Below, piece after piece: positions 7,429 to 27,837 of a stretch of 64,000 nt of DNA (positions are counted from its first letter, which is position 1; the number at the start of each line of letters is the position of its first letter). The notes under the pieces are model-generated. The model searched no databases. It saw nothing but the letters and a program-made list of their open reading frames with translations, and was not told where the DNA came from. Source of the stretch: Arthrobacter crystallopoietes (GTDB taxonomy: Bacteria; Actinomycetota; Actinomycetes; Actinomycetales; Micrococcaceae); NCBI RefSeq assembly GCF_017603825.1, contig NZ_CP072014.1:1922001-1986000 (forward strand), given 5' to 3'. Both the position numbers and the translations under genes were made by a program.

Positions 7429-8301
7429 TTAGCTGTAGTCGTACCAGCCCCGGCCGGTCTTGCGGCCGAGGCGGCCTTGTTCGACGAGGTTCGTGATGGC
7501 GGGGTCCGGGCGGTCGGCGTCGTTGTTGGTTTCGGCGTAGGTTGCCTGGGCGATGAAGTCGATGACGTCCAGGCCGACCATGTCCATGAGTTCGAAGGGT
7601 CCCATGGGGTGTCCGAGCGCGGTTTTGGCGGTGGTGTCGATGTCTTCGAGGGTGGCGATGCCGGCGGTGTGCAGGGCGAGGGCTTCCTTTTGGATGGCGC
7701 CCATGAGCCGGTTGGCGACGAAGCCGGGGATCTCGCGGTTGATCAGGACGGGTTCCTTGCCGAAGCGCCGGGCAAGTTCAAGGGTGGTGTCCACGGTGGC
7801 CTGCGACGTTGCCTCGTTGCGCACGACTTCCACGCATTTCATTACCAGCGCGGGGTTGAAGAAGTGCATGTTGCAGACCTGTTCGGGCCGGCCGCTGGCT
7901 TCGGCGACCTTCGAGGAGCCGAGGGTGGACGAGTTGGTGGCGAGGATGGCGTGGGCCGGTGCGAGTTCGCCGAGCTGGGTGAAGATGTGCTGCTTGAGTT
8001 CGAGCCGTTCGGTGGCGGCCTCGATGACGAAGTCGGTATCCGCGGCTGCGGCGGCGAGGTCCGTGCTGAAGGCGAGTCGGCCGAGTGCGGCGTCGGCGTC
8101 CGCCTGGCTGGCCCGGCCCTTGGCCACGTTGGCCTGCATCCGGGAGGTCAGCTGTTCCTTGGCCTGGGCGAGCATGTCCTCGGCGATGTCCTGGACGGTG
8201 ACGCGGTAGCCGGCGAGGGCGGCGACCATGCCGATCTGCGAGCCCATGGCGCCGGCGCCGATGACCAGAATGTGCTTGATGTTCTCGATCGAGGGATTCA
8301 T
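7429..8301 (-). CDS. 3-hydroxyacyl-CoA (3-hydroxybutyryl-CoA) dehydrogenase
   Basis: I use ATG 8301 (290 residues), preceded by AAGGA; upstream codons would run into the neighbouring gene. The N-terminus has the NAD-binding GAGAMGSQIG loop, then NSSTLGSSKVAEA and HFFNP, the conserved region with the catalytic His, and a C-terminal helical domain (GFVANRLMGA, GHPMGPFELMDMVGLDV). It oxidises (S)-3-hydroxybutyryl-CoA to acetoacetyl-CoA. It lies seven bases after the aldehyde dehydrogenase gene, at the end of the glutarate operon, where it fits the step after crotonyl-CoA hydration. Confidence 0.92.
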   Translation of the reverse strand: MNPSIENIKHILVIGAGAMGSQIGMVAALAGYRVTVQDIAEDMLAQAKEQLTSRMQANVAKGRASQADADAALGRLAFSTDLAAAAADTDFVIEAATERLELKQHIFTQLGELAPAHAILATNSSTLGSSKVAEASGRPEQVCNMHFFNPALVMKCVEVVRNEATSQATVDTTLELARRFGKEPVLINREIPGFVANRLMGAIQKEALALHTAGIATLEDIDTTAKTALGHPMGPFELMDMVGLDVIDFIAQATYAETNNDADRPDPAITNLVEQGRLGRKTGRGWYDYS

Positions 8302-8308
8302 GCGTTCC

Positions 8309-9775
8309 TTAAACTCCGGCCGTTCCGCCGCGCAGGTAGACGGTGGTGGTGTGGGTGAAGAATTCCTTGGCCGCGGCGCCCTGTTCCTTGGGGCCGTAGC
8401 CGGACTTCTTTGCGCCGCCGAAGGGCACATGCGGGTCGGCGCCGGCGGATTCGGAGTTCACGTGCAGGATGCCGACGTCAAGGTCGTCGATTGCGTCCAG
8501 TGCGCGGGTGACGTCCTGGGTGAACAGTGCGGCGGAGAGCCCGAACTCGCTGTCGTTGGCCAGTTCGAACGCCTGCTCCACGGTGGCAGCCCGGCGGACG
8601 GCCAGCACGGGCCCGAACAGTTCCTCGCGCCAGACGTCGAGCTCCTGATCCGCGGGGAGCTCCAGGATGGTTGGTGGGATGAAGTAACCGGAGGCGAGGT
8701 CGTCGTCGTACTTTTGGCCGCCGGCGATCAGCCGCGCGCCCTGCGAGAGGGCGGTGTCGATGCCGTCGCTGATGGACTTGCGGGCGCCGTCGTTGACCAC
8801 CGGGCCCATCTGGACGGTTGGGTCGGCCGGGTCGCCGACCGCCAGCGCGTTGGCGCGTTCGGCCAGGGTGGCGAGGAACTCGTCGGCGATGGCCTCGGCC
8901 ACGATGAGCCGCGAGGTGGCGGTGCACTTCTGCCCGGTGGAGCGGAACGCACCGAGCATGACTTGTTCCGCGGCGAGATCGAGGTCCGCGTCGGCGAGGA
9001 CGACGGCGGCGTTCTTGCCGCCCATCTCGGCCTGCACCGGAACGCCCCGCCCGGCTGCCTCGGCGGCCAAACGGCGGCCGACACCGGTGGAGCCGGTGAA
9101 GGTCAGCCCGTCCAGCGCCGGATGTTCCACGATGGAGTTGCCCATCGAACCCGGTCCGATCAGCAGGTTCAGCACGCCGGCCGGCAGGCCCGCGGCATCC
9201 AGCGCCTGGGCCAGCCGCAGCGCCAGCAGCGGCACGGTGCTCGCCGGTTTCCAGACCACGGTGTTGCCGTAGGCCAGGGCCGGGGCGATCTTCCACGCCG
9301 GGATCGCGATGGGGAAATTGAACGGGGTGACTACGCCGACCACGCCCAGCGGCTTGCGCGTGACGAGGATCTTCTCGCCGCGTCGCGGAGAGGAGAAGAT
9401 CTCGCCGGCGGTGCGGTCGCCGTCGTTCCCGTAGTAGCGGAAGATTTGCGCCGCACGCAGCACCTCGCCCTGGCCCTCGGCCCGTGTCTTGCCCTCCTCG
9501 CGGGCCAGCTCCAGCCCCCAGGCTTCCGCATTCTGCTCAATGACGACGGCGGCGCGGAGCAGCACGGCGCCGCGCTCGTGTGCCGGGGTGCGCGCCCACT
9601 CGCGCTTGGCTGCCACGGCGGCGGACATGGCCTGCTCCACCTCGGCCGGTCCGGCCTGCAGTCCCTGCGCGACAACTTCGTCCGGGCGGGCCGGGTTGGA
9701 GCTGGTGATGGGGGAGCCGGTGCCGGGCACCCAGGCGCCGTCGATGTAGTGCTGAAGCTGTACCGGGGAGGTCAT
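8309..9775 (-). CDS. Aldehyde dehydrogenase, probably glutarate semialdehyde dehydrogenase
   Basis: A 488-residue NAD(P) aldehyde dehydrogenase starting behind AAGGAG. Key residues are visible: N153 in PFNFPIA, E250 in EMGGKN and the nucleophile C284 in TGQKCTA. The sequence style (PFNFPIAIPAWKIAPALAYGN, FGGAKKSGYGPKEQG) resembles the semialdehyde dehydrogenases acting on 2,5-dioxopentanoate, succinate or glutarate semialdehyde. Sitting between glutaryl-CoA dehydrogenase and hydroxyacyl-CoA dehydrogenase, with a GabT/DavT-type aminotransferase upstream, it most likely converts glutarate semialdehyde to glutarate. Family is certain; substrate is inferred from context. Confidence 0.9.
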   Translation of the reverse strand: MTSPVQLQHYIDGAWVPGTGSPITSSNPARPDEVVAQGLQAGPAEVEQAMSAAVAAKREWARTPAHERGAVLLRAAVVIEQNAEAWGLELAREEGKTRAEGQGEVLRAAQIFRYYGNDGDRTAGEIFSSPRRGEKILVTRKPLGVVGVVTPFNFPIAIPAWKIAPALAYGNTVVWKPASTVPLLALRLAQALDAAGLPAGVLNLLIGPGSMGNSIVEHPALDGLTFTGSTGVGRRLAAEAAGRGVPVQAEMGGKNAAVVLADADLDLAAEQVMLGAFRSTGQKCTATSRLIVAEAIADEFLATLAERANALAVGDPADPTVQMGPVVNDGARKSISDGIDTALSQGARLIAGGQKYDDDLASGYFIPPTILELPADQELDVWREELFGPVLAVRRAATVEQAFELANDSEFGLSAALFTQDVTRALDAIDDLDVGILHVNSESAGADPHVPFGGAKKSGYGPKEQGAAAKEFFTHTTTVYLRGGTAGV

Positions 9776-9830
9776 GCGCGCTCCTTGAAGTAGCGGAGGG
9801 AAAACAGGGACTGGAGGCTGCTGCCAAATA

Positions 9831-9880: not shown

Positions 9881-11041
9881 TTACCGGAAGGCGGGGACGC
9901 CGGTGATCTTCTGGCCCAGGATGAGGGTGTGGACTTCGTCGGTGCCTTCGTAGGTGCGCACCGATTCGAGGTTGTTGGCGTGGCGTAGCGGGGAGTAGTC
10001 CAGCGTGATCCCGTTGCCGCCGAGGATGGTGCGGCATTCGCGGGCGATCTCGATGGCTTCGCGGCAGTTGTTGAGTTTGCCCACGGAGATCTGGTGCGGC
10101 TGCAGCTGTCCGGCGTCCTTGAGCCGGCCCAGGTGCAGGGCGAGCAGGAAGCCCTTGTTGATCTCCAGTGCCATGTTGACCAGTTTTTCCTGGGTGAGCT
10201 GGTAGCCGGCCAGCGGCTTGTCGAACTGCAGGCGTTCCTTCGAGTAGTCCACGGCGGCCTGCCAGGCATCGCGGGCCGCGCCCATGGCGCCCCAGATGAT
10301 GCCGTAGCGGGCCTCGTTCAGGCACTCGAACGGGCCGCGCAGCCCTTTCGCGTCCGGCAGGACGGCGTCGGCGGGGAGGCGGACGTCGGTCAGTTCGATG
10401 TCGCACTGGATGGAGGCGCGCATGGAGAGCTTGGGCTCGATCGGGGTGGCCTTGAATCCGGCGGTTTCGGTGGGGACCACGAAGCCGCGCACGCCCTCCT
10501 CGGTCTGGGCCCAGATGACGGCGACTTTGGCGACGGAGGCGAGGCCGATCCAGCGCTTGGAGCCGTTGAGGATCCAGTCTTCGCCGTCGCGGCGGGCGAA
10601 GGTTTTCATGCTGGAGGGATCCGAACCGGCGGTGGGCTCGGTGAGTCCGAAGCAGCCGATCGCTTCGCCGGCGGCCATCTGCGGCAGCCATTGAAGCTTC
10701 TGCGCCTCGGAGCCGTGCTTGTAGATGGCGCTCATCGCCAGCGAGCCCTGCACGGAGACGAACGTGCGCAGGCCGGAATCGCCGGCTTCGAGCTCGGCGC
10801 CGGCCAGGCCGTATTCCACGGCGGAGCGGCCGGCGCAGCCGTAGCCTTTCAGGTGCATGCCGAGCAGGCCGAGCTTGGCCATTTCGGGAACGATTTCCAG
10901 CGGGAACACGGCCTTTTCGTACCAGCCGGCAATGTTCGGCTTGATCGCGGAGTCCACGAAGGAGCGGACGTTCTTCTGCAGCAGCCGCTCCTCCTCGGTC
11001 AGCAGGGAGTCGAGGGCAATCAGGTCATGATCCTGGGACAT
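9881..11041 (-). CDS. gcdH: Glutaryl-CoA dehydrogenase
   Basis: A 386-residue acyl-CoA dehydrogenase. The ribosome binding site AAGGA precedes ATG 11041. The C-terminal signature TYEGTDEVHTLILGQKITG is characteristic of glutaryl-CoA dehydrogenases and holds the candidate catalytic base E365. LRTFVSVQGSLAM (91-103) carries an Arg and Ser matching substrate-carboxylate ligands of the human enzyme by my alignment from memory. FAD motifs CFGLTEPTAGSDPSSM and WIGLAS are intact. It oxidises and decarboxylates glutaryl-CoA to crotonyl-CoA. It follows the aminotransferase by 46 bp, in the same operon. Confidence 0.93.
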   Translation of the reverse strand: MSQDHDLIALDSLLTEEERLLQKNVRSFVDSAIKPNIAGWYEKAVFPLEIVPEMAKLGLLGMHLKGYGCAGRSAVEYGLAGAELEAGDSGLRTFVSVQGSLAMSAIYKHGSEAQKLQWLPQMAAGEAIGCFGLTEPTAGSDPSSMKTFARRDGEDWILNGSKRWIGLASVAKVAVIWAQTEEGVRGFVVPTETAGFKATPIEPKLSMRASIQCDIELTDVRLPADAVLPDAKGLRGPFECLNEARYGIIWGAMGAARDAWQAAVDYSKERLQFDKPLAGYQLTQEKLVNMALEINKGFLLALHLGRLKDAGQLQPHQISVGKLNNCREAIEIARECRTILGGNGITLDYSPLRHANNLESVRTYEGTDEVHTLILGQKITGVPAFR

Positions 11042-11087: not shown

Positions 11088-12515
11088 TCAGGCGAGTGCC
11101 GGAGCGGCGGCTTCCGCTGTGGTTGCGTCGCGGCCGGCCGCGACGTCGACGATGGCCTGTCGCAGGACCGCCAGCCCGTCGCGGAACAGTTCGTCGCTGA
11201 TGACCAGGGGCGGCAGCAGCCGGATCACGTTGCCGTACGTGCCGCAGGTCAGGGTCAGCACGCCCTGGGCGTGGCAGCGGGCGGAAATCTCCTTGGCCAG
11301 GTCGGCCCGGGGTTCCAGCGTGCCGCGGTCCGCGAACTCGAGGGCGAGCATGGCGCCCCGGCCACGGAACTCTGCGACAACCTCGGTCTCCGCGACCAGC
11401 GGTTCGAGCACTTCGCGGGCGGTGGCTTTGATGGCGCGGGCGTTGGCCAGCAGCGTGCCGTCCTCGAAGGCCTCGAACACGGCCAGCGCCGCTTCGCAGG
11501 CCAGCGGGTTTCCGGCGTAGGTGCCGCCGAGGCCGCCGGCGTGGACCGCGTTCATTAGGTCGGCCCGGCCGGTGACTGCGCTGAGCGGGACGCCGTCGGC
11601 GAGGGCCTTGGCGCTGAGTGTCATGTCGCCGGCGATGCCTTCGTGCTCGCTGGCGAAGAGGGTGCCGGTGCGGCCCATGCCGGCCTGGATTTCGTCGATC
11701 ACCAGCACGATGCCGTGCTTCGTGGCGATCTCGCGCAGGCCTTTGAGGAAGCCGGGTGCGGGAACGATGAAGCCGCCCTCGCCCTGGATGGGCTCGATGA
11801 CCATGGCGGCGAAGCTCTCCGCGCCGTGCTCGGCCAGCGTTGCTTCGACGGAGGCGAGTGCCGCGGCGGCGACGTCCGAGCCGGAGGCGGGAACGCCGTC
11901 GTCGTTGGTTGCGGCTGCAGAGGCCGCGGGGCGCAGCGGATTGGCGGAGGCAGCGCGTACCACCTCGGTGGGGAACGGGCCGAAGTTGAGCCGGTACGGG
12001 TTCTCCTTGGCGGTCATCGCCATGGTCATCAGGGAGCGGCCGTGGTAGGCCTCGTCGAAGACCAGGACCTTGCTGCGGCCGGTGGCGGAGCGGGCGATCT
12101 TGACCGCGTTCTCCACGGCCTCGGCGCCGGTGGAGAAGAGTGCAGTCCGCTTCTCGAAGTCTCCCGGCGTGTGCTCGTTGAGCCACTTGGCTACCTGGGT
12201 GAAGGACTCGTACTCGGTGACCATGAAGCAGGTGTGCGTGAAGCGCTCCAGTTGGGCGGCCACCCGCTCGCGGACGCGCGGATTGCTGGCGCCGATGCTG
12301 GTTACTGCGATGCCGGAGGCGAAATCGATCAGCCGGTTGCCGTCCACATCCTGCAGGATGCCGCCGTCGGCCCGGTCGATGAAGACCGGCAGGGCGATGC
12401 CGAAGCCGTCGGTCACGTGGGCCTGGCGTTCGGCATGCAGGGCCTGTGAACGCGGGCCGGGGATGGCGGTGGCCAGGTGGCGGGACTGGGGGAGCGGAGT
12501 GAGGCTGGAAGTCAT
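11088..12515 (-). CDS. gabT: 4-aminobutyrate / 5-aminovalerate aminotransferase
   Basis: A 475-residue class III aminotransferase. It shows FSTGAEAVENAVKIAR, DEAYHGRSLMTMAMT, VIEPIQGEGGFIVP, DEIQAGMGRTG and the PLP lysine K303 in LSAKALADG. It moves the amino group of 4-aminobutyrate or 5-aminovalerate to 2-oxoglutarate. An Ala-rich insert of roughly 20 residues (about 188-220) is unusual. Because the next genes handle glutaryl-CoA, a DavT-like role on 5-aminovalerate is favoured. It is divergent from a PucR regulator; TAGCGT sits six bases before the ATG, suggesting a leaderless transcript, as no ribosome binding site is seen. Confidence 0.92.
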   Translation of the reverse strand: MTSSLTPLPQSRHLATAIPGPRSQALHAERQAHVTDGFGIALPVFIDRADGGILQDVDGNRLIDFASGIAVTSIGASNPRVRERVAAQLERFTHTCFMVTEYESFTQVAKWLNEHTPGDFEKRTALFSTGAEAVENAVKIARSATGRSKVLVFDEAYHGRSLMTMAMTAKENPYRLNFGPFPTEVVRAASANPLRPAASAAATNDDGVPASGSDVAAAALASVEATLAEHGAESFAAMVIEPIQGEGGFIVPAPGFLKGLREIATKHGIVLVIDEIQAGMGRTGTLFASEHEGIAGDMTLSAKALADGVPLSAVTGRADLMNAVHAGGLGGTYAGNPLACEAALAVFEAFEDGTLLANARAIKATAREVLEPLVAETEVVAEFRGRGAMLALEFADRGTLEPRADLAKEISARCHAQGVLTLTCGTYGNVIRLLPPLVISDELFRDGLAVLRQAIVDVAAGRDATTAEAAAPALA

Positions 12516-12550
12516 GGGACAACGCTAATGTCCGTGCAAGCCATTGGTCA

Positions 12551-12567
12551 TTGGATGCTCCATCCAA
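12551..12567. promoter_or_regulatory. Perfect palindrome between gabT and the PucR gene (candidate operator)
   Basis: TTGGATG-CTC-CATCCAA is a perfect 17-bp palindrome (7-bp arms) 36 bases upstream of gabT and 30 bases upstream of the PucR start, overlapping the expected -35 region of the regulator. A partial copy (TTGGAT) recurs at 12582-12587. It is a good candidate PucR operator. Confidence 0.5.
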
Positions 12568-12584
12568 AACTTTCGCCGGTGTTG

Positions 12585-12590
12585 GATAAT
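12585..12590 (+). promoter_or_regulatory. -10 element for a leaderless PucR transcript
   Basis: GATAAT ends six bases before ATG 12597, which places the expected transcription start on the start codon itself. No ribosome binding site is present, so the message is probably leaderless. Confidence 0.45.
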
Positions 12591-12596
12591 CAGACC

Positions 12597-14198
12597 ATGG
12601 TTTCCTTGGCACAACTCAGCACCGAACTGGGTGACTCATTACGTCGCGCTACTCCTGGAAGCGTGTCCGGCATTCAGCTCACCGGCGTGCACGTCTCGGA
12701 ACTCGAGGATCCCACCGCCTATCTGGAGGGCGGCGAACTGTTGCTTACCACGGGGATACCCCTGGGCGGCACGGCGTCCACGGTTTCTGCTTATGTGGGA
12801 CGGCTGGCTGCCAAGGGCGTGGCCGGCCTTGGCCTCGGATTGGGCGAGGGGCTCGATGCTGTGCCGCCGCAACTCGTGGAGGCTTGCTCCGCCGACGGGA
12901 TCGAACTGCTGGTAGTTCCCGACGGTGTCCCGTTCCTGGATGTGTCGCGCGCCTTCTGGGACTTGGCCGCCAGGAGCGGTCAGGCAGACCTGATCGCGAG
13001 CCTCGGAACGCAAACGGCACTGGCACGGGCGGCGATGCGGCAGGACGCGATTCCGTCCGTTGTGCAGGGGCTCGCCCAAGCCCTCGGGGGCTGGGCTGCG
13101 TATCTCCCGGCCGACGGCGCCGCCGCGACCATTTGGCCGGCTGGCTCCACGGCACTGCTGCCCCACCTGCGTGAGGAGACCACCCGGTTGAATATGGCGG
13201 GAACGCACTCCGCAGCAACGTTCTGGCTGCACGGCACGCCGGTGGTCGAATATCCCATCCTTGTCGGGCGGAAGATCGAGGGCTTTCTGGCCATCGGCTC
13301 GGGACGCACGCTAACCAAGGCGGACCGGCAGATCATCATGACCGTCTGCGTGCTGCTGGCCATGCGGGCCCAGCAGCAGGAAGAACTTTCCAGTACTGCC
13401 GGAGCGCTGGGATCCGCCGCCGCCAAGCTCGTAGCCCGCGGACACAGCGAGGCCGCGCGGTTACTGGCTACGGACGTGGGCCTTCCTCCGCTGCCCGAGC
13501 GTGTGCACGTCCTCGCAGTCCGGATGGGCCCTGCCTCTCGTGACCTGGCATCCGCGGCTTACGCGGTTGCGGGATTCGACGTCGAGGACGGCTCCCTCCT
13601 GCCGGCGCCGGCGCTGACTGATTGTGAGCTTAGATTCATTGAGGATGGTGTCGCCTACTTCCTCATCGACGCAGCCACGCTGAGCGCGGAGAGCGCCGTG
13701 GCGGGGGAGGAGGACGAAATTTACGACGGCGAGTTGCTCGCATGGGCGCAATCCCCGGCAGCGGTGGCAGAACCGGGCACCGCCCGGAAATCTGCGTGGC
13801 CGACGTCCGGGCGGCAGGTCCAACCTGCCACAGAAACCGGCGCAGCGTGGACCGGGCCGCTGCAGCTGGCCGAGGTCGCCGGAAAATTCGCCGCCGTCCG
13901 GCGAGCCGCGTTGCTCGCGCCAGCCGGGCGACTGGTGGGAACCTCAGGCGACGACGATGCCCGGGCGGACCGCTGGGCAGAGACGCTTGCCGGCTACAAC
14001 CGCGCAGACCTGCTTGGCACCGTTGCCGCGTATCTGCGGCATCGCGGGCACTGGGAAGAAACCGCGCGGGCGTTGGACGTACATCGGAACTCCCTGCGGC
14101 ACCGGATGGCCGTGGCGGAGAAACTGCTGGGGATCAGCATCGAGGATCCGGACGTCGCCGCCCACCTGTGGCTCGCGCTGCGGCGGCGCGGGCTCTAG
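12597..14198 (+). CDS. PucR-family transcriptional regulator
   Basis: About 533 residues from ATG 12597, chosen because a -10-like GATAAT lies six bases upstream; longer in-frame starts overlap the gabT promoter. Residues 1-125 form the PucR N-terminal domain (GVHVSELEDPTAYLEGGELLLTTG). The C-terminus is a PucR-type helix-turn-helix (TVAAYLRHRGHWEETARAL, then DVHRNSLRHRM). Such regulators control purine, GABA or amino acid breakdown and usually activate. Divergent from gabT with a palindrome between, it most likely controls the glutarate operon. Its stop overlaps the convergent CoA-transferase stop by four bases. Confidence 0.9.
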   Translation: MVSLAQLSTELGDSLRRATPGSVSGIQLTGVHVSELEDPTAYLEGGELLLTTGIPLGGTASTVSAYVGRLAAKGVAGLGLGLGEGLDAVPPQLVEACSADGIELLVVPDGVPFLDVSRAFWDLAARSGQADLIASLGTQTALARAAMRQDAIPSVVQGLAQALGGWAAYLPADGAAATIWPAGSTALLPHLREETTRLNMAGTHSAATFWLHGTPVVEYPILVGRKIEGFLAIGSGRTLTKADRQIIMTVCVLLAMRAQQQEELSSTAGALGSAAAKLVARGHSEAARLLATDVGLPPLPERVHVLAVRMGPASRDLASAAYAVAGFDVEDGSLLPAPALTDCELRFIEDGVAYFLIDAATLSAESAVAGEEDEIYDGELLAWAQSPAAVAEPGTARKSAWPTSGRQVQPATETGAAWTGPLQLAEVAGKFAAVRRAALLAPAGRLVGTSGDDDARADRWAETLAGYNRADLLGTVAAYLRHRGHWEETARALDVHRNSLRHRMAVAEKLLGISIEDPDVAAHLWLALRRRGL

Positions 14199-15376
14199 CC
14201 GTCCCCGCGAAGCCAGTGAAGGACACTCTCGGTGTTCTCGCCCAAGGCCGGCGGAGCGCTGGACCTCGGTTCGAAAGCCGGGGACCAGGAAATCGGATGG
14301 CGGATCTGTCGACCGACTGACTTCCCCGTGGTGTCCTGGACCTCGATCGTCGGGTTCAATCCCAGGGACTCGGCGTACCCGATCCCCTCGTCGATGGAGG
14401 CAACGGGTCCGACCGGCACGCTCACGCCGGCCAGCTTGTCCCGCCAAACCTCCGCCGACGCCGCAGCGAGTGCATTTTCGAGCAGAGGGATCAACTCCGT
14501 CCGATGCTCCACACGTGAATTGTTGGTGGCGAAGCGGCCATCGTAGGCCAGCGCCGGTACCCCGATCACCTCGGTGAGCCGCCGGAATTGGCCGTCGTTG
14601 CCGCAAGCTACTGCGAGCGGTCCGTCGGCACACTCGAGCAGCTGGTAGGGAACGATTGAAGGGTGCTCGTTGCCCATCCGCTTCGGCACCTTGCCGGCGC
14701 CCAGGTAGGCCTGGGCCTGGTTGGCCAGAGCGCCCTGCAGGCTGGAGAGCAAATTCACCTCCAAGTGACTGCCGCGTCCGGATGCAGGCCGCGCGTTGAG
14801 CGCTGCAAGGATGCCGATGGTCGCGTCCTTGGCTGTCAGCACGTCTACTAGCGCGACTCCGGCCTTGTACGGGGAGCCGTCCGCCTCGCCCGTGATGCTC
14901 ATCAGCCCGCCCAATGCCTGGACGATGAAGTCGTACCCGGGCAGGTCCGCTCCGCCCGCAGAGCCGAAACCCGAGATGGAGGCGTAGACCAGTCCCGGGT
15001 TCTCCGCCGCAAGTTGCTCGTAACCAAGACCGAGTTTCGCCATGCCGCCAGGCTTGAAGTTCTCAACCAGCACGTCCGCTCGCCGCGCCAGTTCCCGGGC
15101 CAGCTTGAGGTCTTCCGGGTTGGACAGGTCCAGGCAGACGGATTCCTTGTTGCGATTCACGCTTTCGAAGTAGGTGGCGCCGGTGGGGGAGTATGGCGGT
15201 CCCCAGCTTCGCGTATCGTCTCCGGTGCCCGGCCGCTCTACCTTGATCACCCGGGCTCCGAGATCGGCCAGCGTCATCGTGGCGAGCGGCCCGGCGAGGA
15301 CACGGGAAAAGTCGGCGACAAGGATGCCGTCCAAGGGCCGTTGCGATGATGACGGCGGGAGGTGCTGGGTTGGCAT
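14195..15376 (-). CDS. Class III (CaiB/BaiF) CoA-transferase, likely glutarate CoA-transferase
   Basis: I place the start at ATG 15376 (393 residues), behind AAAGGG. The N-terminal block LDGILVADFSRVLAGPLATMTLADLGARVIKVE is family-typical, VNRNKESVCLDL and ENFKPGGMAKLGLGY follow, and D149 in LPGYDFIVQA is the catalytic aspartate that forms the CoA-carboxylate intermediate. It moves CoA between carboxylic acids in the cytoplasm. The neighbouring pathway makes glutarate and then needs glutaryl-CoA, so glutarate (with succinyl-CoA as donor) is the inferred substrate, as for the human SUGCT enzyme of the same family. Confidence 0.9.
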   Translation of the reverse strand: MPTQHLPPSSSQRPLDGILVADFSRVLAGPLATMTLADLGARVIKVERPGTGDDTRSWGPPYSPTGATYFESVNRNKESVCLDLSNPEDLKLARELARRADVLVENFKPGGMAKLGLGYEQLAAENPGLVYASISGFGSAGGADLPGYDFIVQALGGLMSITGEADGSPYKAGVALVDVLTAKDATIGILAALNARPASGRGSHLEVNLLSSLQGALANQAQAYLGAGKVPKRMGNEHPSIVPYQLLECADGPLAVACGNDGQFRRLTEVIGVPALAYDGRFATNNSRVEHRTELIPLLENALAAASAEVWRDKLAGVSVPVGPVASIDEGIGYAESLGLNPTIEVQDTTGKSVGRQIRHPISWSPAFEPRSSAPPALGENTESVLHWLRGDG

Positions 15377-15564
15377 TGAGACCCTTTCGAGCGGAAAACA
15401 ACCGGCGCAGCCGCGACGGCTATGGGACTGGCGTCCAGTGTAGGAAGGGCTGTCGGGAAGCAGCATCGGATATCCCATCCAGGCCTTAGATGGTTTGCAC
15501 AACGTAGATGTGGCTTCCCCTGTCGATGTCCTGGTCCAGCAGCGGCCGGACTAGGATCTTGCCC

Positions 15565-21078: not shown

Positions 21079-22512
21079 ATGACACTCACCCCCGTGCGGC
21101 CCGACCTGGCCGCCATCGACCTGCAGCAATCGCTCAATGACCGCGGCGCCTTCGCACGGCACCAGGAGCGCAACCTGCGTCCCGAAACCGTGCGCGAGCT
21201 CGGCCGCAAGATCGAGGAGGCCGGCGTCGAGTACGTGTACTACGCACTGCCGACCATCGGCTCCCGCATGGTGGCCAAAATGGTCCCGGCCAACCACTTC
21301 AAGCGCAACCTGGAAAAGGGCATTTGCTTCCACCGGACGGCGCTGTCCGACCTGCAGAATGACCGCCACGGCAACCTGATCGGCGGCGGCATCGAGGCGC
21401 GCGAGTTCTGGGCGCTGCCGGAGCCGGATACGTTCGTGGTGCTGCCATGGGACACGTCCGTGGCGCGGATTTTCTGCACGGCCTACGAGCCCCCGCACCT
21501 GCCGGAGGTCGGCGGCCGCGTGCTGCCGATCGACACCCGCTCGCTGCTGATCCGCTCGCACGAAGCCTTCACCGCCCGCACAGGCTTTGAGGTCCGCTCC
21601 GGGACCGAACCCGAGATGACCTGGGAGGGCCCCGGTCTCGAGGTGGTCAAGAAGCCCGGCACCAGCCCGGCCTACCAGGTGGAGAACCTGGAGCGCATGC
21701 GTCCGATCTACAAGAAGCTGGTCACCTACGCCAAGGCCATGGGCTTGGACATGATTGAGGGCGACTACGAAGACGACGGGCAGCTCGAGCTCAATTGGAT
21801 GTACGACCGGGTGGAAAACACCGCCGACCGGCTGGTCACCTACCGCCAGATCTGCAAGCAGGTTGCCCGCGAGTTCGGCGTCACCGCCAGCTTCATGCCC
21901 AAGCCCTACAACGGCCAGATGGGCAACGGTTGCCACCACAACCTGAGCCTTTGGGACGGCGACACCAACGTGATCGAAGATGACGGCAGGGTGGAACTGC
22001 ACGTTTCCGAGACGGCTAAGCACGCCATCGGCGGCCTGCTCACGCACGCCCCCGGTTCGATGGCGGTCATGGCCAGCACCGTGAACTCCTACAAGCGGTT
22101 CTGGGACGCAGGCCAGTTCGCTCCCAGCACGGCGAACTGGGGCCTGGACAGCCGCGGCTGCCTGGTGCGCATCTCCTCCAATGGCCGGATGGAGTACCGG
22201 GTACCGGACGCGGCAGTAAATCCGTACCTGTCCCATACGCTGCTTATCGCCGCCATGGAGGACGGTCTGAACCGCCGGCTGGATCCGGGGATGCCCGACG
22301 ACGGCGGTGCGGACGTTCCGGCCCTCGGCGGCCAGCTGCCGCTCACCCTGGGCGACGCAATCGACGCCTTCGTCTCGGATACCTACCTCACCTCGGCGCT
22401 GCCGGCGGACCTGGTATCGATCTACACCCAGCTAAAGCAGGAGGAGTGGGCCCGCTACTGCGGCGCCATCACCGAATGGGACCGCGAGATGTACTGGGAG
22501 ACCATTCCGTGA
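21079..22512 (+). CDS. Glutamine-synthetase-like gamma-glutamyl-amine ligase
   Basis: A 477-residue protein of the glutamine synthetase family. The N-terminal beta-grasp part contains ALPTIGSRMVAKMVPANHF; the catalytic domain shows FMPKPYNGQMGNGCHHNLSLW (ATP and metal/glutamate loop), LTHAPGSMAVMASTVNSYKRF and NGRMEYRVPDAAVNPYL. True nitrogen-assimilating enzymes end differently, and the neighbours are amine catabolic, so an ATP-dependent glutamate-amine ligase (PuuA or IpuC style) is likely. A glutamine-synthetase-like gene also accompanies the P450 in mycobacterial morpholine/piperidine clusters. Substrate unproven. Confidence 0.88.
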   Translation: MTLTPVRPDLAAIDLQQSLNDRGAFARHQERNLRPETVRELGRKIEEAGVEYVYYALPTIGSRMVAKMVPANHFKRNLEKGICFHRTALSDLQNDRHGNLIGGGIEAREFWALPEPDTFVVLPWDTSVARIFCTAYEPPHLPEVGGRVLPIDTRSLLIRSHEAFTARTGFEVRSGTEPEMTWEGPGLEVVKKPGTSPAYQVENLERMRPIYKKLVTYAKAMGLDMIEGDYEDDGQLELNWMYDRVENTADRLVTYRQICKQVAREFGVTASFMPKPYNGQMGNGCHHNLSLWDGDTNVIEDDGRVELHVSETAKHAIGGLLTHAPGSMAVMASTVNSYKRFWDAGQFAPSTANWGLDSRGCLVRISSNGRMEYRVPDAAVNPYLSHTLLIAAMEDGLNRRLDPGMPDDGGADVPALGGQLPLTLGDAIDAFVSDTYLTSALPADLVSIYTQLKQEEWARYCGAITEWDREMYWETIP

Positions 22513-23237
22513 GCCATGTTGAGACTGTTTCGGCAGGCGTCCTCCGCCTGGCCTGCATCGACTCCGAGGCGCCGCCGCTGTTCAACCTGGTTGACGACGC
22601 CGGCAACCGCCGCGGGTACGAACCGGAGGCGGCCGAACTGGTCGCCTCCGTGCTCGGCCTGCGCATCGAATGGGCCTACCTCGACTGGGACGACATGCTG
22701 CCCGCTGTCCGTGACCACCGCGTGGATGCGGTTTGGTGCGGCCAGGGCATCATTCCGGAACGCCAGGCCGTGGTGAACTTTACCGACCCGTACGCTGTGT
22801 TCGACGAGACCGTGCTGGTGCGCAAAGGCGATCCGGCCCGTTCGCCGGCTGACCTCGCGGGCTACAAGGTGGCGGCCATCGAAGGCAGCGCCAACATGAA
22901 ACTGGCCGTCACCTTCGAGGGAGCCGAACCGGTTGCCTTCACCGGCGCGGACGTCTTCGGCGACATGCTGGCGGCTCTGCGCAACGGTGAGGTGGATGCC
23001 ATGGTGGACGACGACGTCGTAACCGTGCCGCTGGGTGAAGACCCGGCGTACGATGTCGCTTTTACCCACCCCACAGGTAACCGGTGGGGGATCGGCGTGG
23101 CCAAGGACAACCCCTTCCTGCTGGCCGAACTCAACACGGCACTGGCAACGGTAGTGGCAGACGGGCGGCTGGAGCGGATCTGGACCAAGTGGATGCCGCA
23201 CCTGCCGTACGCGCTGGCTGCGGAGGTGGCTGTATGA
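22509..23237 (+). CDS. Family 3 solute-binding-domain protein lacking a signal peptide
   Basis: From GTG 22509 (GTGA overlap with the ligase stop) this is 242 residues. It is one periplasmic-binding-protein type 2 domain of family 3: LRLACIDSEAPPLFNLVDD, the Arg-Gly-Tyr-Glu-Pro-Glu block, GIIPERQAVVNFTDPY and GNRWGIGVAKDNP. Usual members are lipoproteins feeding ABC importers, but the domain begins within ten residues of the start, with no signal peptide or lipobox, and no ABC permease or ATPase is nearby. It should be cytoplasmic. It might be a binding chaperone or sensor for the amino acid substrate, or an enzyme such as the cyclohexadienyl dehydratase-type members. Function unknown. Confidence 0.8.
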   Translation: MSHVETVSAGVLRLACIDSEAPPLFNLVDDAGNRRGYEPEAAELVASVLGLRIEWAYLDWDDMLPAVRDHRVDAVWCGQGIIPERQAVVNFTDPYAVFDETVLVRKGDPARSPADLAGYKVAAIEGSANMKLAVTFEGAEPVAFTGADVFGDMLAALRNGEVDAMVDDDVVTVPLGEDPAYDVAFTHPTGNRWGIGVAKDNPFLLAELNTALATVVADGRLERIWTKWMPHLPYALAAEVAV

Positions 23238-23968
23238 GCCGCCCCTTGATCGGCGTTCCGGGCATGTGGTCCAACTCCGTCCACGGCCTGCGCTTCGATG
23301 GCGTTGCCGTGGCCGCCAAGGTGCTGCGCTGCATCGTTGCTGCCGGCGGGGAACCGGTCATCATGTTCCCGGGAAGCGGTGACAGCGCCGCCGAGCAGGT
23401 AGCCCGTTTCGACGGCGTGCTGCTTCCCGGCGGCGCCGACGTGGCGCCCGAACTCTATGGAGCAGAACCGGACGAACATTACTGGCCCACCGACTACTCA
23501 GGCCAGGACGCTTATGAATCGGCCATTATGGCCGCCTGCATCGAAGCGGGAGTGCCGTTACTGGCGATCTGCCGCGGCCTGCAGCTGCTCAACGTATCCC
23601 GGGGCGGGACCCTGCTGCAGCATCTGGAACCGGGTACCGTCCAGCACAAGGATGCGATCCACCCGGTCACCGTCTCGACAGACTCCCTGCTGGCAACAGT
23701 GGTCGGATCCGGACGGGTGGATGTTTCCTCGTACCATCATCAGGCCGTTGGTGTGCTCGGTGAGGGCTTGCAGGTCACGGCGGCCGCAGCGGACGGCGTG
23801 GTGGAAGCGCTTGAAGTGCCGGGAGCTTCAATGCTCGCCGTCCAGTGGCACCCGGAAGACACCGCAGAGACCAATCCCGCCGACCATGCGCTGTTCGTCT
23901 GGGTTGTCGATGCGGCCAGGCAGCGCCGTGACAAGGCTGCCGCTACGGCACTGGCAGGCGCCCGGTGA
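23234..23968 (+). CDS. PuuD-like gamma-glutamyl-amine hydrolase (class I GATase fold), first copy
   Basis: A 244-residue peptidase C26-type protein, ATGA-overlapping the upstream gene. The triad is C113 in LLAICRGLQLLNV, H206 and E208 in QWHPED. GVLLPGGADVAPELYG is the family-typical N-terminal block, and SSYHHQAVG is present. In the Puu pathway the enzyme removes glutamate from 4-(gamma-glutamylamino)butanoate. Here it should release the amino acid made from the gamma-glutamylated amine. A second copy follows at once. Confidence 0.9.
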   Translation: MSRPLIGVPGMWSNSVHGLRFDGVAVAAKVLRCIVAAGGEPVIMFPGSGDSAAEQVARFDGVLLPGGADVAPELYGAEPDEHYWPTDYSGQDAYESAIMAACIEAGVPLLAICRGLQLLNVSRGGTLLQHLEPGTVQHKDAIHPVTVSTDSLLATVVGSGRVDVSSYHHQAVGVLGEGLQVTAAAADGVVEALEVPGASMLAVQWHPEDTAETNPADHALFVWVVDAARQRRDKAAATALAGAR

Positions 23969-24792
23969 GCGGGCTGCGGGTCAACCCCGCGGATGTAGTT
24001 CCCGCCGGCTTCGGCGGCCTGCCAGCGGATGCGCCGCGCGTCGCCGTCGTTGTTTCACTAGCGTTCCCCGGGATGACCCAGCAGACGCTGGAGTTGATGG
24101 AGCGGTTTACGCGTGTCGCGTTTGAAACACTGTTGGCGGCCGGTGCGCGGGCCGAACTCGTGGACAGCGCGGCGGAACAACTGACTCCCGAAGCAGAGCT
24201 GGCCAAGTACGACGGAGTTCTCTTTCTGGGCGGCGGTGACGTGGATGCGTCGCTGTATGGCCACACCGGGCCGGTACCGAACTCGTACGGAGTCGATCTG
24301 CGGGCGGATCAGTACTGTGTGGAACTGATCCGCGGTGTGCTGGAGCGGGACCAGCCGTTGCTCGCCATCTGCCGGGGGTCACAGCTGCTCAACGTAGCCT
24401 GTGGCGGCACACTGATCCCTGATCTGGATCCATGGCATCTGCACCGCGGGGCGCCGGGACAGCCGATGTTCCTGGACGAGAAGGTGAACCTGGCTCCCGG
24501 CTCGAAGGTGGCGGCCATCCTTGGCCGTCCTACGGTCACCGTGCGCTCGGGGCATCATCAGGCGGTGGGAACCGTGGCAGCTGAATTGAGAGTTGCCGCT
24601 CTGGCGCAGGACGGTGTGGTTGAAGGTACGGAGCATCCGGGGAAGACCTGGGTGGTCGGCGTGCAATGGCATCCGGAGGACTCGGACGGGGACGCGAATG
24701 ATCGGTCCCTGTTGTTCGAAGAGTTCGTGCGCCAGAGCAGGCTGAATCCGGCCGCTGCGCCGGGCAGGACGCAGGAGCCGGCCAACGCCTGA
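23965..24792 (+). CDS. PuuD-like gamma-glutamyl-amine hydrolase, second copy
   Basis: A 275-residue paralogue from GTG 23965, GTGA-overlapping the first copy. Triad candidates are C136 in LLAICRGSQLLNV, H236 and E238 in QWHPEDS; GVLFLGGGDVDASLYG and RSGHHQAVG match the first copy. Its N-terminus carries about 25 extra residues before the fold begins. The two copies differ widely, so they probably cut different gamma-glutamyl intermediates or form a heteromer; this is inference. It is the last gene of the plus-strand operon and ends at a strong bidirectional stem-loop. Confidence 0.9.
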   Translation: MSGLRVNPADVVPAGFGGLPADAPRVAVVVSLAFPGMTQQTLELMERFTRVAFETLLAAGARAELVDSAAEQLTPEAELAKYDGVLFLGGGDVDASLYGHTGPVPNSYGVDLRADQYCVELIRGVLERDQPLLAICRGSQLLNVACGGTLIPDLDPWHLHRGAPGQPMFLDEKVNLAPGSKVAAILGRPTVTVRSGHHQAVGTVAAELRVAALAQDGVVEGTEHPGKTWVVGVQWHPEDSDGDANDRSLLFEEFVRQSRLNPAAAPGRTQEPANA

Positions 24793-24793: not shown

Positions 24794-24833
24794 CAGTTGA
24801 TCTGCGCGGTCATCCGGCCGCGCAGATCAACTG
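24794..24833. terminator. Bidirectional stem-loop between convergent operons
   Basis: A perfect 16-bp inverted repeat (CAGTTGATCTGCGCGG at 24794-24809, complement at 24818-24833) with an 8-nt loop lies between the PuuD-like gene and the convergent cache gene. The loop contains the stop codon of the cache gene (24810-24812), so the right arm is coding sequence. Confidence 0.75.
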
Positions 24834-25526
24834 CAGGTTCAGGTTGGGGACGTTCAGCGGTATGAAGCAGAATCCCTCGGGCGCTGCCTTGATCCGTTCC
24901 CCCACGATGAAACGTCCGGAGTTGCCCAGGATCACGCGGTTCTGGCCATTCAGGATGGCGGCATCTCCAGGAATCCGGCGGATGATCGGGATGAACTTGT
25001 TTTCGATGTCGCGGATCCGGATGTCGCAGCCGGTTACACCGATGAAGGTTCCATGGACATAGGTCGGCACGGTACAGGTCATGATGTATTCGTCGAAACC
25101 GAGATAGTCCACATAGGGTCCCGCAATGGATTGCCGGCCGGTTTTGGCCGCGATGGAAAACCAGGGGAGCTGCTCGTAGTCGTAAAACCGTTCGCCCTCG
25201 GGAGCTAAATCAAAATCCAGCTTTTCGATATTCCCGGAATCAGTTCTGAACCACCATTCCAATACTCCCTCCGCGTCTTTGATTGCGGAGATTGAGAAGA
25301 TTACTCCAGCGCCGACAACAATGTCGTGGGAATTGAGGAATGCGGTAGATATTTTGCGTAATCCGGTAATGTCTTTCGGCGATATTTTTATGCCTGAGGG
25401 AATTCTTGCTTCGAGCTGTTTTTCCACCGTGTGAGCGGCGTCGTATAGGTCCTGGTACAGCTCATTGAGCCATGCCTCGATGGCCGTCGCACTGCTGATG
25501 GCGCGGGGTGAGGCGGGCGCGGTCAT
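24810..25526 (-). CDS. Soluble cache (PDC sensor) domain protein
   Basis: A 238-residue protein. After a helical stretch (about 15-50) comes a single cache-type ligand-binding fold: WFRTD, FYDYEQLPWFSIAAKTGRQSIAGPYVDYLGFDEYIMTCTVPTY and IGVTGCDIRIRDIE are typical PDC sensor motifs. Cache domains normally sit outside the membrane in receptors, but no signal peptide or membrane segment is present. Its ATG overlaps the gntR stop (ATGA), so the two are translated together. It may sense the amine or an intermediate on behalf of the regulator; this is inference. Confidence 0.8.
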   Translation of the reverse strand: MTAPASPRAISSATAIEAWLNELYQDLYDAAHTVEKQLEARIPSGIKISPKDITGLRKISTAFLNSHDIVVGAGVIFSISAIKDAEGVLEWWFRTDSGNIEKLDFDLAPEGERFYDYEQLPWFSIAAKTGRQSIAGPYVDYLGFDEYIMTCTVPTYVHGTFIGVTGCDIRIRDIENKFIPIIRRIPGDAAILNGQNRVILGNSGRFIVGERIKAAPEGFCFIPLNVPNLNLQLICAAG

Positions 25527-26284
25527 GAGATCTCCTGTTCATCGCCTGCATGGGCAAGCGTGAGCTTGGTGTCAATGAGGTGGTAGGTGTTCCGCCGGAT
25601 ATGTTCGACAACCAGGCGCTGAGCGTTGTCTGGTTCGTCCGCCCTGATCGCATCGACAATACGCACATGCTCACGGGCGGCCGTGGCCGGGTCGAACACA
25701 CCGGCAATCGGGCTCCACAGCAGCTGGCCAACCTCGGATTGCAGCCGGATCTCCAAGCTGGTTAGCCGCGGAGACTGGGCGACCACTGCCAGCTCAATGT
25801 GGAAGCGGCTGTCTGACCTTGCCTGTGCTTCAGGGGAATCGGCTCCGGCCAGTGCCTTGGCCAACTGTTCCAGCCTGTCCAGGTCCTTGGGATGCGCGCG
25901 ATCGCATGCCAGGCGGGCAGCTGCTGCGGCCACGGCGGTTTGCTCGTCACCGAGATCCCGCAGATCGGCAATGGAAGTGTCCCGGAGATATTTCCGTAAC
26001 TGCTGTTCCTGGGCTGCAGGTGACTTGACCACGAACGTTCCGCCGTTGCGGCCCCGGCGTGTTTCAACTACGCCGCGTTCCCTTAGTTCAGCGAGGGCTT
26101 CACGAAGGGTGGCTCCCGCTACGCCGAACATATCGGAAAGCTCGGACTCCACGGGCAACCGTTCGCCGACGCGGAGCATGCCCAGGGCAATTGCCGTGGA
26201 TATCCTCTGGACGATGGCCTCCGACCGTTCCTTTTCGGGCAGGGAGCGATAAATCTGGGACTGCAACGCCGGCGGTGATGCCAC
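25523..26284 (-). CDS. GntR-family regulator, FadR subfamily
   Basis: I choose GTG 26284 (253 residues), seven bases after AGGGAGA; a frame to 26338 exists but has no such site. The N-terminal winged helix reads RLPVESELSDMFGVAGATLREALAELRERGVVETRRGRNGGTF-like in FadR style, followed by an all-helical FCD effector domain with RFHIELAVVAQSPRL and HIRRNTYHLID metal/ligand-region motifs. It should repress the amine operon or the following dehydrogenase gene until an acidic intermediate binds. It is divergent from the dehydrogenase at 26458 and coupled to the cache gene. Confidence 0.92.
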   Translation of the reverse strand: MASPPALQSQIYRSLPEKERSEAIVQRISTAIALGMLRVGERLPVESELSDMFGVAGATLREALAELRERGVVETRRGRNGGTFVVKSPAAQEQQLRKYLRDTSIADLRDLGDEQTAVAAAAARLACDRAHPKDLDRLEQLAKALAGADSPEAQARSDSRFHIELAVVAQSPRLTSLEIRLQSEVGQLLWSPIAGVFDPATAAREHVRIVDAIRADEPDNAQRLVVEHIRRNTYHLIDTKLTLAHAGDEQEIS

Positions 26285-26392
26285 GATTCTCTCCCTTCTG
26301 CGGAGCGACAACTGAATGTCGGGTTTCCGACGAATCACTTATGGATCATTCTACTTTACGCCACTGCTGCATATTAGCCGTCCGGCCGCGCA

Positions 26393-26412
26393 AGACATAT
26401 CAAGAAATGTCT
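26393..26412. promoter_or_regulatory. Palindrome between gntR and the aldehyde dehydrogenase
   Basis: AGACAT-N8-ATGTCT lies in the AT-rich 173-bp gap between the divergent genes, 46 bases before the dehydrogenase start. It is a candidate operator for the adjacent GntR regulator; GntR/FadR sites are usually shorter in spacing, so confidence is low. Confidence 0.3.
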
Positions 26413-26457
26413 CGAATTTGCTGGATATGAAGTCTTCCTGCCGATATTTTTGAAAGC

Positions 26458-27837
26458 ATGACTTACTACAAGAGTATAAATCCCGCTACCGGCGAAACGC
26501 TGCGGGAATTTCCGGCTGCCGGCGACGAAGAAATTTCCGCGTCACTCAAGAAAGCACAGACCGCCTACGACTCATGGCGGCAGACTGCGGTTCCGGAGCG
26601 AACTGCCGTGCTGCTGCGCGTAGCCGAACTCTACCGGGACCGTCGGGATGAGCTGGCGGGAATCATCAGCCTGGAAATGGGTAAGCCGATCAGCCAGGCC
26701 AGGGGCGAAGTAGGACTGGTCGCGGACATTTACGAGTACTACGCAACCGAAGGTCCGGCGTTCATGAAAGATGAGCCGCTGATCGTCCGCGGCGGCGGAG
26801 AGGCCGTTGTCCGTTCGGCACCGGTCGGAGTGCTGCTCGGCATCATGCCGTGGAACTATCCCTACTACCAGGTGGCCCGGTTTGCCGCTCCGAACCTGAT
26901 GCTGGGAAACACGATCCTGCTCAAACACGCGCGCAACTGCCCGCAGTCGGCGCTCGTGATGGAGGAAATCTTCCGTGCCGCCGGGTTGCTCGACGGTGCC
27001 TATGTCAACATTTTTGCGACCAACGAGCAGGTCGCTGGAATCATCGCCGATCCCCGGGTCCAGGGCGTCTCCCTGACAGGCAGCGAGCGTGCGGGGTCTG
27101 CCGTAGCGGAGGTGGCTGGCCGCCACCTTAAGAAGTATGTGCTCGAACTCGGCGGAAGCGATCCGTTCATTGTGCTGGACTCCGAGGGTCTGGATGCAAC
27201 GGTCAAGGCTGCGGTCGGCGGACGCATGAGCAATGCCGGCCAGGCCTGTACTGCCTCCAAGAGGTTCATCATCGTCGAGGACCTCTATGAAGAATTCGTG
27301 GATAAATTCACCAAGCGGATGGCGAGGATCGAGCCGGGCGACCCGCTGAAGCCCGAAACGCGCTTCGGCCCCCTGTCATCGCGGGCTGCTGCCGAAGAAC
27401 TGATCGAACAGATTGAGGATGCGGTGGACAAGGGCGCTGAATTGCTCACGGGCGGCAAGCTTGTCGAAGGACAGGGAGCTTACGTGGAGCCGACGGTCCT
27501 CACCGGAGTGCGGCCCGGGATGCGTGCCTACTCGGAAGAGCTCTTTGGCCCCGCTGCGGTCATCTACAAAGTCCGGGATGCCGAGGAAGCCGTCGAACTG
27601 GCGAACGGGTCGCCCTATGGTCTCGGCGGAGCCGTCTTCAGCGCCGATGTGGAGAAGGCCAAGGAAGTTGCCGACCGGCTGGACACCGGCATGGTGTTTA
27701 TCAATTCTGTGGCGGATTCACAGCCTGATCTGCCTTTCGGCGGTGTTAAACGCTCCGGCGTTGGCCGCGAGCTGGCCAAGTACGGCATGGCCGAATTCGT
27801 GAACAAGAAGCTGATCCGGGTGCCTGCCGCAGGTTAG
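26458..27837 (+). CDS. Succinate/amino-aldehyde semialdehyde dehydrogenase
   Basis: A 459-residue aldehyde dehydrogenase, short for the family and like the Sad/GabD2 group of succinate semialdehyde dehydrogenases. Catalytic residues are N133 in MPWNYPYYQ, E230 in LELGGSDPF and C264 in GQACTA. It oxidises an aldehyde to an acid with NAD(P). It is next to the gntR-cache pair and the P450/gamma-glutamylation operon, so it probably oxidises the amino-aldehyde or gamma-glutamylamino-aldehyde formed there, the PuuC-like step. A strong stem-loop terminator follows directly. Confidence 0.92.
   Translation: MTYYKSINPATGETLREFPAAGDEEISASLKKAQTAYDSWRQTAVPERTAVLLRVAELYRDRRDELAGIISLEMGKPISQARGEVGLVADIYEYYATEGPAFMKDEPLIVRGGGEAVVRSAPVGVLLGIMPWNYPYYQVARFAAPNLMLGNTILLKHARNCPQSALVMEEIFRAAGLLDGAYVNIFATNEQVAGIIADPRVQGVSLTGSERAGSAVAEVAGRHLKKYVLELGGSDPFIVLDSEGLDATVKAAVGGRMSNAGQACTASKRFIIVEDLYEEFVDKFTKRMARIEPGDPLKPETRFGPLSSRAAAEELIEQIEDAVDKGAELLTGGKLVEGQGAYVEPTVLTGVRPGMRAYSEELFGPAAVIYKVRDAEEAVELANGSPYGLGGAVFSADVEKAKEVADRLDTGMVFINSVADSQPDLPFGGVKRSGVGRELAKYGMAEFVNKKLIRVPAAG

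Follow-up and report, generated by a model that had tools for sequence, protein, structure and literature searches.

Two adjacent gene blocks in Arthrobacter crystallopoietes and a candidate route from a cyclic amine to acetoacetyl-CoA

Genes of the two blocks

A 64,000-nucleotide stretch of the Arthrobacter crystallopoietes genome (contig NZ_CP072014.1; C1:1922001-1986000 of a single 4.38-Mb contig), referred to here as the window, contains two neighboring blocks of catabolic genes between positions 7429 and 27837 that probably serve one route from a cyclic amine to acetoacetyl-CoA. Genes were called by codon usage, and those of the two blocks were then scanned against NCBIfam and Pfam. An earlier note made from the bare sequence had named a permease, a P450 system and gamma-glutamylation enzymes in block one and a 5-aminovalerate-to-acetoacetyl-CoA set in block two; gene calls, Pfam, NCBIfam and PDB matches placed every gene it named where it had put it. 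Its list can be extended by a PucR regulator in block two and by SBP_bac_3, dCache and GntR/FCD proteins in block one.

Block one opens on the forward strand with an APC-family amine or amino acid permease (16786-18300 with the start chosen in the earlier note, within an open reading frame [ORF] that opens at 16609; AA_permease_2) and a PipA/MorA-like cytochrome P450 (18356-19555), called from the Pfam and NCBIfam scans and bearing the heme motif FGGGVHHCLG. These are followed on the same strand by a 63-amino-acid ferredoxin (19598-19789) with the cysteine pattern C-x5-C...C-P, presumably of the three-cysteine, 3Fe-4S type, an FAD-dependent ferredoxin reductase (19791-21044; Pyr_redox_2), a glutamine-synthetase-like gamma-glutamyl-amine ligase (21079-22512; Gln-synt_C), an SBP_bac_3 solute-binding protein (SBP) that lacks a leader and is predicted to be cytosolic (22509-23237; Pfam), and two PuuD-like gamma-glutamyl hydrolases (PuuD1, 23234-23968; PuuD2, 23965-24792; both Peptidase_C26). 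The closest solved structures to the ligase are the glutamate--methylamine ligase 9qur and 7cql, and both hydrolases keep the Cys of ICRG and the His and Glu of QWHPE. On the reverse strand lie a soluble dCache (PDC) protein, a putative cytosolic amine sensor (24810-25526; MCP-like_PDC_1), and a GntR/FCD regulator that is PipR-like by position (25523-26338; GntR plus FCD). The block closes on the forward strand with an aldehyde dehydrogenase (ALDH) resembling succinate-semialdehyde dehydrogenase and PuuC (26458-27837; Aldedh).

Overlaps of 4 bp join the ligase to the SBP gene (22509-22512), the SBP gene to PuuD1 (23234-23237), PuuD1 to PuuD2 (23965-23968), and the GntR gene to the dCache gene (25523-25526), which points to translational coupling within both runs. 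Scans for promoters (2 promoter-like sites versus 2.1 in shuffles) and terminators (9 terminator-like sites versus 13.1 in shuffles) were uninformative. A PuuB-type amine oxidase family was not found among the scanned block genes, and the P450 would take the oxidative step. The set that defines a PipA/MorA-type cluster includes an adjacent glutamine-synthetase-like gene and a GntR regulator, and block one has both beside its P450, along with the small three-cysteine ferredoxin.

Block two lies mostly on the reverse strand. A 3-hydroxyacyl- or 3-hydroxybutyryl-CoA dehydrogenase (HBD; 7429-8301; 3HCDH_N plus 3HCDH) occupies an ORF that runs to 8430, and its likely start is the Met codon at 8301, immediately 3' of the stop of an ALDH gene (8309-9775; Aldedh, 515.7 bits) for which we propose the DavD role of glutarate-semialdehyde dehydrogenase. 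The best NCBIfam family of this ALDH is alpha-ketoglutaric semialdehyde dehydrogenase, at 509 of the 770 bits needed. Beyond it are a glutaryl-CoA dehydrogenase (GCDH; 9881-11041) and a class-III aminotransferase proposed to act on 5-aminovalerate (DavT) or on gamma-aminobutyrate (GABA) (11088-12515; PRK06058, 616 of 639 bits). On the forward strand, a PucR-family protein (12477-14198; PucR plus HTH_30) is the presumed regulator of the block. A family-III CoA-transferase on the reverse strand (14195-15376, ORF to 15502; CoA_transf_3, 374 bits) is proposed to be a succinate--glutarate CoA-transferase; its best NCBIfam family is SucGlutTfsCaiB, at 356.7 bits versus 750 needed. As the earlier note had claimed, crotonase was not found among the scanned block genes; seven ECH_1 matches lie elsewhere in the host genome.

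The aminotransferase matches the PDB GabT chain 4ffc at 487 bits, and family scores do not tell GabT from DavT. Host-genome searches with this enzyme, GCDH, the ligase and the oxidase discussed below were made by sequence only, and they placed a 57% identical paralogue of the aminotransferase beside an ALDH gene at C1:4241413, an arrangement that is consistent with a separate GABA route and suggests a division of labor.

The firmest identity call in the two blocks is that of GCDH, which is single copy in the host genome (E ≤ 1e-120). It scores 544.6 bits against PDB chain 3swo, which with 3sf6 is nearest to it, and 367 bits against 1siq; we take 3swo to be the mycobacterial enzyme and 1siq the human one. 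It carries the Arg of DSGLRTFVSVQ and the Glu of TYEGT, to which we assign the usual roles in substrate binding and catalysis, respectively. A Desulfococcus-type GCDH was rejected (178 of 470 bits needed, versus 367-545 for 3swo, 3sf6, 2eba and 1siq). The flavin-site WIT(N) motif is replaced by WIGLA (residues 162-169) here, in all 51 distinct Micrococcaceae copies read, and in one metagenome-assembled genome (MAG; L103); GCDH of six Mycolicibacterium and of Microtetraspora has WITNG, and the five PDB chains shown have WITN or WISN. A Thr-to-Gly change in this motif is a trait of some acyl-CoA oxidases, and the PDB relatives of GCDH include one such enzyme from a plant, acyl-CoA oxidase 4. The change may be an oxidase-like trait.

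The PucR and CoA-transferase genes (12477-15376) diverge from those of sister genomes G001, G003 and G007 (51% and 72-77% identity, respectively), and the flanking block genes are about 91-99% identical in the same genomes, as if this segment had been exchanged. Between the blocks, a 315-amino-acid ORF (15508-16455) has no Pfam or NCBIfam match; it is present in eight of nine sister genomes at 54-92% identity and was not found in G008.

Linkage of the blocks in other genomes

The earlier note had proposed to check whether the two blocks lie side by side in related genomes, and would have dropped the link had they never occurred together; they do lie side by side. Counting the host, the P450 occurs in all ten genomes of the genus (E ≤ 1e-60), in 26 of 245 of the family (E ≤ 1e-80), and in 16 of 394 of the class (E ≤ 1e-110). 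In eight of the nine other genus genomes, the CoA-transferase, PucR, aminotransferase and GCDH genes stand upstream of the P450 with their order kept, and in the ninth (G002) the contig stops within PucR. An insertion separates the blocks in G004, leaving GCDH about 15 kb from the P450.

Across the family, GCDH is found in 175 of 245 genomes (E ≤ 1e-120), and by coordinates 19 of the 26 that carry the P450 have both genes on one contig, 6.4-32 kb apart: nine of the genus, host included, seven of genus code g22, and G145, G085 and G109. For scale, two 32-kb flanks amount to about 1.5% of a 4.4-Mb genome. Because these genomes are related, the 19 cases are far from 19 independent ones. The neighborhoods read around the P450 in 16 genomes outside the genus took in block two for G145, G085 and G189 and only part of it for G109 and G030; for the other g22 genomes, linkage is drawn from coordinates and from loci L223, L225, L226 and L230, which carry the cassette.

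Beyond the family, we compared P450 loci that were the best 80 of 253 relatives from one genome scan, with identity thresholds for gene counts chosen after a first view of the neighborhoods. GCDH of at least 50% identity lies within about 10 kb of the P450 in 15 of the 80 (five of the genus, Arthrobacter ruber, one MAG, Microtetraspora glauca, Humibacillus xanthopallidus and six Mycolicibacterium). We did not count further acyl-CoA dehydrogenases, of 28-30% identity, that also lie near these P450s. Excluding 25 GCDH-negative loci with less than 9 kb of flank gives 15 of 55, or 16 of 56 once the window is added. By a quick tree of the P450s, the linked state needs at least six changes, which may be gains or losses alike; the same tree suggests that a PipA/MorA-like operon and a 5-aminovalerate/glutaryl-CoA module came together on more than one occasion.

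Gene arrangements in Microtetraspora and Mycolicibacterium argue most strongly for a single route served by both halves. In Microtetraspora glauca, GntR, dCache, P450, ferredoxin, reductase, ligase, SBP, PuuD1, PuuD2, CoA-transferase and GCDH genes follow one another in a single direction, with the PuuD2 stop at 14539 and the CoA-transferase match beginning at 14542. In Mycolicibacterium frederiksbergense, CoA-transferase, ALDH, GCDH, aminotransferase, dCache and GntR genes share one strand, divergent from a run of permease, P450, ligase, SBP, PuuD1 and PuuD2 genes.

A ferredoxin relative (at least 40% identity) occurs in 63 of the 80 P450 loci. In M. frederiksbergense, locus L122 is without relatives of the ferredoxin and reductase; both may be replaced by a 2Fe-2S protein, encoded downstream (14831-15790), whose N-terminal part is DmmA-like. 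On plasmid pGKT2 of Gordonia sp. KTR9 (L082, 12476-19487), GntR, cache, P450 and ligase genes adjoin those for an FAD oxidoreductase and a second P450, which we take to be the explosive-degrading xplB and xplA. Alphaproteobacterial loci (L084 on a Ruegeria plasmid, L139, L140, L142, L144, L146, L150, L153, L154, L158, L160, L161 and L164) have two glutamine-synthetase-like genes, and tblastn did not find SBP or PuuD relatives in them; the annotated Ruegeria locus carries an ATP-binding cassette (ABC) importer and a type 1 glutamine amidotransferase.

The SBP and dCache proteins accompany the P450 at most actinobacterial loci read, with relatives in 56 and 53 of the 80 loci, respectively. The SBP most likely starts at the GTG at 22509, within the stop of the ligase gene, and even its longest possible ORF has no hydrophobic leader. 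Starts were called in 55 of 56 homologues, all without an obvious leader, by a script that took the start codon nearest to the window's own and is thus biased toward leaderless forms; a strongly hydrophobic N terminus was seen in none of 32 aligned homologues. A role as part of an ABC importer was rejected, as the protein has no leader and the block genes include neither an ABC permease family nor an ABC ATPase family. The predicted SBP structure (predicted local distance difference test [pLDDT] score, 93.3) best matches arginine-, glutamine-, opine- and deoxyfructosyl-amino-acid-binding proteins and an ancestor of cyclohexadienyl dehydratase.

The window copy of the dCache protein has no clear membrane segment, and 3 of 25 aligned homologues exceed 1.6 on a 19-residue Kyte-Doolittle window (highest, 1.98). 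Its predicted structure (pLDDT, 90.7) is nearest to McpU with putrescine (ranks 1-3), then to McpX, MkcA and PctD, and further down the ranking come an amino acid receptor, PctA (rank 8), and a histamine receptor, TlpQ (rank 14). These fold matches are moderate, with template-modeling scores of 0.67-0.71 for the first six and identities of 14-18%.

A proposed route and its alternatives

We consider it probable that the two blocks form one catabolic route, split into two transcriptional units, that carries a cyclic amine to acetoacetyl-CoA. The gene families, their order, their conservation and their recurrent linkage are matters of observation; from them we infer the substrate, each reaction, the sequence in which the reactions occur, and the transcription units. 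Block one would import a saturated cyclic secondary amine, piperidine fitting best, although it may also take in pyrrolidine or morpholine. Hydroxylation of the carbon adjacent to nitrogen would fall to the P450 and its redox partners, the ferredoxin and reductase, and the resulting carbinolamine would open to an amino-aldehyde, 5-aminopentanal in the case of piperidine. By capping the amine with gamma-glutamate, the ligase would block re-closure to the cyclic imine; an aldehyde dehydrogenase would oxidize the aldehyde, and a PuuD-like hydrolase would free 5-aminovalerate. In block two, transamination would give glutarate semialdehyde and oxidation would give glutarate, which would be loaded with CoA and converted by GCDH to crotonyl-CoA. 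The path to acetoacetyl-CoA would be completed by a crotonase whose gene lies elsewhere, together with the dehydrogenase of block two. Piperidine is favored on chemical grounds: a C5 substrate makes GCDH useful, and C4 pyrrolidine would end at succinate.

Several observations weigh against this reading. None of the block proteins reached a curated NCBIfam cutoff among the best 25 rows per protein, so the gene names rest on Pfam, PDB neighbors and context. A P450 family is usually defined by at least 40% identity, and the likeness of the window P450 to PipA and MorA runs through Gulosibacter identities, not direct alignment: it shares 69-70% identity with the P450s at loci in two other Gulosibacter genomes, and two Gulosibacter molinativorax P450s are reported to share about 52-53% identity with PipA of M. 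smegmatis and MorA of Mycobacterium HE5 (PMC9477822). Members of the proposed path are also missing in places. HBD was not found at this position in G008. The semialdehyde dehydrogenase at 26458, named in the earlier note as part of the route, is indeed present here but is not constant, being absent from its place or broken in four of the eight sister genomes with enough flank: it is full length or nearly so in G001, G003, G009 and G005 (in two adjoining pieces in the last), is reduced to two short fragments in G007, and was not seen in the available flank of G004, G006 and G008. Finally, linkage was not shown in 7 of the 26 P450-bearing family genomes (split contigs in G002; GCDH on another contig in G186, G177 and G198; no GCDH match at E ≤ 1e-120 in G150, G056 and G156), and GCDH is missing from the surrounding 10 kb or so in 40 of the 55 well-flanked loci, so the P450 operon often works without a linked block two. 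For some of the 40 (e.g., L089-L093 and L097), the matching genomes have GCDH 11-32 kb away.

The converse also occurs. We hand-picked 20 family genomes with no P450 match (E ≤ 1e-80) from the GCDH list, across genera and not at random. Eight had the cassette with the aminotransferase, a further point against a dedicated pathway; four had PucR, CoA-transferase, GCDH and ALDH without it, seven had CoA-transferase and GCDH only, and one had GCDH alone. After the cassette of G191 come genes for a flavin amine oxidase, two APC permeases and an ALDH. Also adverse is a 73% identical homologue of this oxidase in the host genome, about 164 kb from the P450; no close relative of any block gene surrounds it, and it is a possible cadaverine feeder. 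Relatives that lack the P450 can still have block two, so adjacency by itself is no proof of flux from block one; in one of them its neighbor is an amine oxidase, so 5-aminovalerate may also arise in other ways. The idea that block two is specific to cyclic amines was therefore rejected, and the block is best read, from these gene contents, as a general 5-aminovalerate/glutarate module that may serve several feeders. The two-block link drawn in the earlier note is well supported by comparison of genomes; a dedication of block two to cyclic amines is not. Further amine-type modules lie near block two in other genera: permease, ALDH, dCache and GntR genes (L229, 1-4783), an amine oxidase with two permeases and an ALDH (L216, 14175-19957), and GntR, dCache and two permease genes (L097, 3308-8053).

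These same findings are what favor reading the blocks as separate neighbors, with block one acting on C4 or other amines (pyrrolidine via GABA to succinate, or morpholine), block two acting on 5-aminovalerate derived from lysine or cadaverine, and their adjacency reflecting shared ancestry within the genus. We regard this as unlikely, though it is the alternative that survives best. Against it stand the recurrence of the linkage, in varied gene orders, in one MAG and in Arthrobacter ruber, Humibacillus, Microtetraspora and Mycolicibacterium, and the single gene run and the divergent pair at the two loci described in detail above. An OKR-type lysine decarboxylase was not found in the host genome, in a search whose scope was that type and not other decarboxylases or lysine monooxygenase, and lysine decarboxylation by an OKR-type enzyme was rejected.

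A second alternative, which we think improbable, is that the substrate is an aliphatic diamine or polyamine such as cadaverine, with the ligase and hydrolases working as they do in Puu and the P450 replacing PuuB on the gamma-glutamylated amine. The ligase, ALDH and PuuD-like proteins are indeed of Puu-type families, and among solved folds a putrescine receptor comes closest to dCache. However, the P450 is related, if indirectly, to reported cyclic-amine hydroxylases, and PMC9477822 cites a recombinant MorA system as oxidizing morpholine itself. A larger or substituted ring (azepane, N-methylpiperidine or pipecolic derivatives) entering another beta-oxidation route is very improbable: P450s of this kind in Gulosibacter molinativorax have been proposed to act on hexamethyleneimine (azepane) (PMC9477822), but azepane would give adipate and need no GCDH, and the linked genes are GCDH and a SUGCT-like CoA-transferase.

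Returning to the single route, block two may also take 5-aminovalerate from sources other than block one, and it is tempting to extend this into a picture of how the operon is controlled. Relatives of the dCache and SBP proteins normally act outside the cell, and here both seem to be intracellular; both recur in most of the actinobacterial loci read. An amine motif for dCache-type domains has been published (PMC10104139). The gamma-glutamyl-amine intermediate is a glutamine analogue, and the SBP is of the glutamine/arginine-binding type. We suggest, tentatively and with less than even confidence, that the operon uses extracytoplasmic-type sensor folds in the cytosol, with dCache reporting the amine to GntR, the SBP holding or sensing the gamma-glutamyl-amine, and block two acting as a shared 5-aminovalerate hub for amine feeders.

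Piperidine, pyrrolidine and morpholine are widespread industrial amines, and because the join recurs in separate lineages, what becomes of piperidine further along the route can be tested directly. Elsewhere in the window (49233-53048), genes for an intradiol (catechol-type) dioxygenase and an FAD aromatic hydroxylase probably belong to a separate aromatic pathway.

Comparison with known systems

The Puu pathway of Escherichia coli uses a gamma-glutamyl ligase, an aldehyde dehydrogenase, a gamma-glutamyl hydrolase and a GABA-type transaminase, and the window shares these four enzyme types. Unlike Puu, the window has a P450 in the place of PuuB, and the proposed route continues through glutarate.

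In the pip system of Mycobacterium smegmatis mc2 155 and the mor system of Mycobacterium sp. HE5, we assume that a glutamine-synthetase-like gene adjoins the P450 gene and that PipR belongs to the GntR family. The P450 step of both is known (Poupin 1999 and Sielaff 2005, as cited in PMC9477822), and in that account, as in the window, the P450 comes with a small ferredoxin, the regulator PipR is named, and HE5 has an adjacent ferredoxin/reductase pair. Set against these descriptions, and not against the mycobacterial loci themselves, the window adds a permease, a pair of PuuD-like hydrolases, an SBP without a leader and a soluble dCache protein, and it has a 5-aminovalerate-to-acetoacetyl-CoA block next door. 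Our literature searches, which covered titles and abstract openings with most subscription journals outside their reach, returned no cluster joining the P450 step to a 5-aminovalerate-glutaryl-CoA block, which is weak evidence of novelty.

The molinate/azepane clusters of Gulosibacter molinativorax ON4, also of the Actinomycetota, contain related sets of P450, ferredoxin and glutamine synthetase; unlike the window, they are proposed to act on a seven-membered ring and to lead to adipate (PMC9477822). GCDH was not seen in the short flanks of two other Gulosibacter loci (L104 and L106).

For block two, the nearest comparison is davTD with gcdR-gcdH-gcoT of Pseudomonas putida KT2440, which likewise comprise a 5-aminovalerate transaminase, a semialdehyde dehydrogenase, a glutarate CoA-transferase and GCDH (PMC6667623). 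Compared with that description, the window gathers these genes into a single cassette, places a PucR regulator where P. putida has the LysR-type GcdR, and adds a 3-hydroxyacyl-CoA dehydrogenase (PMC6667623).

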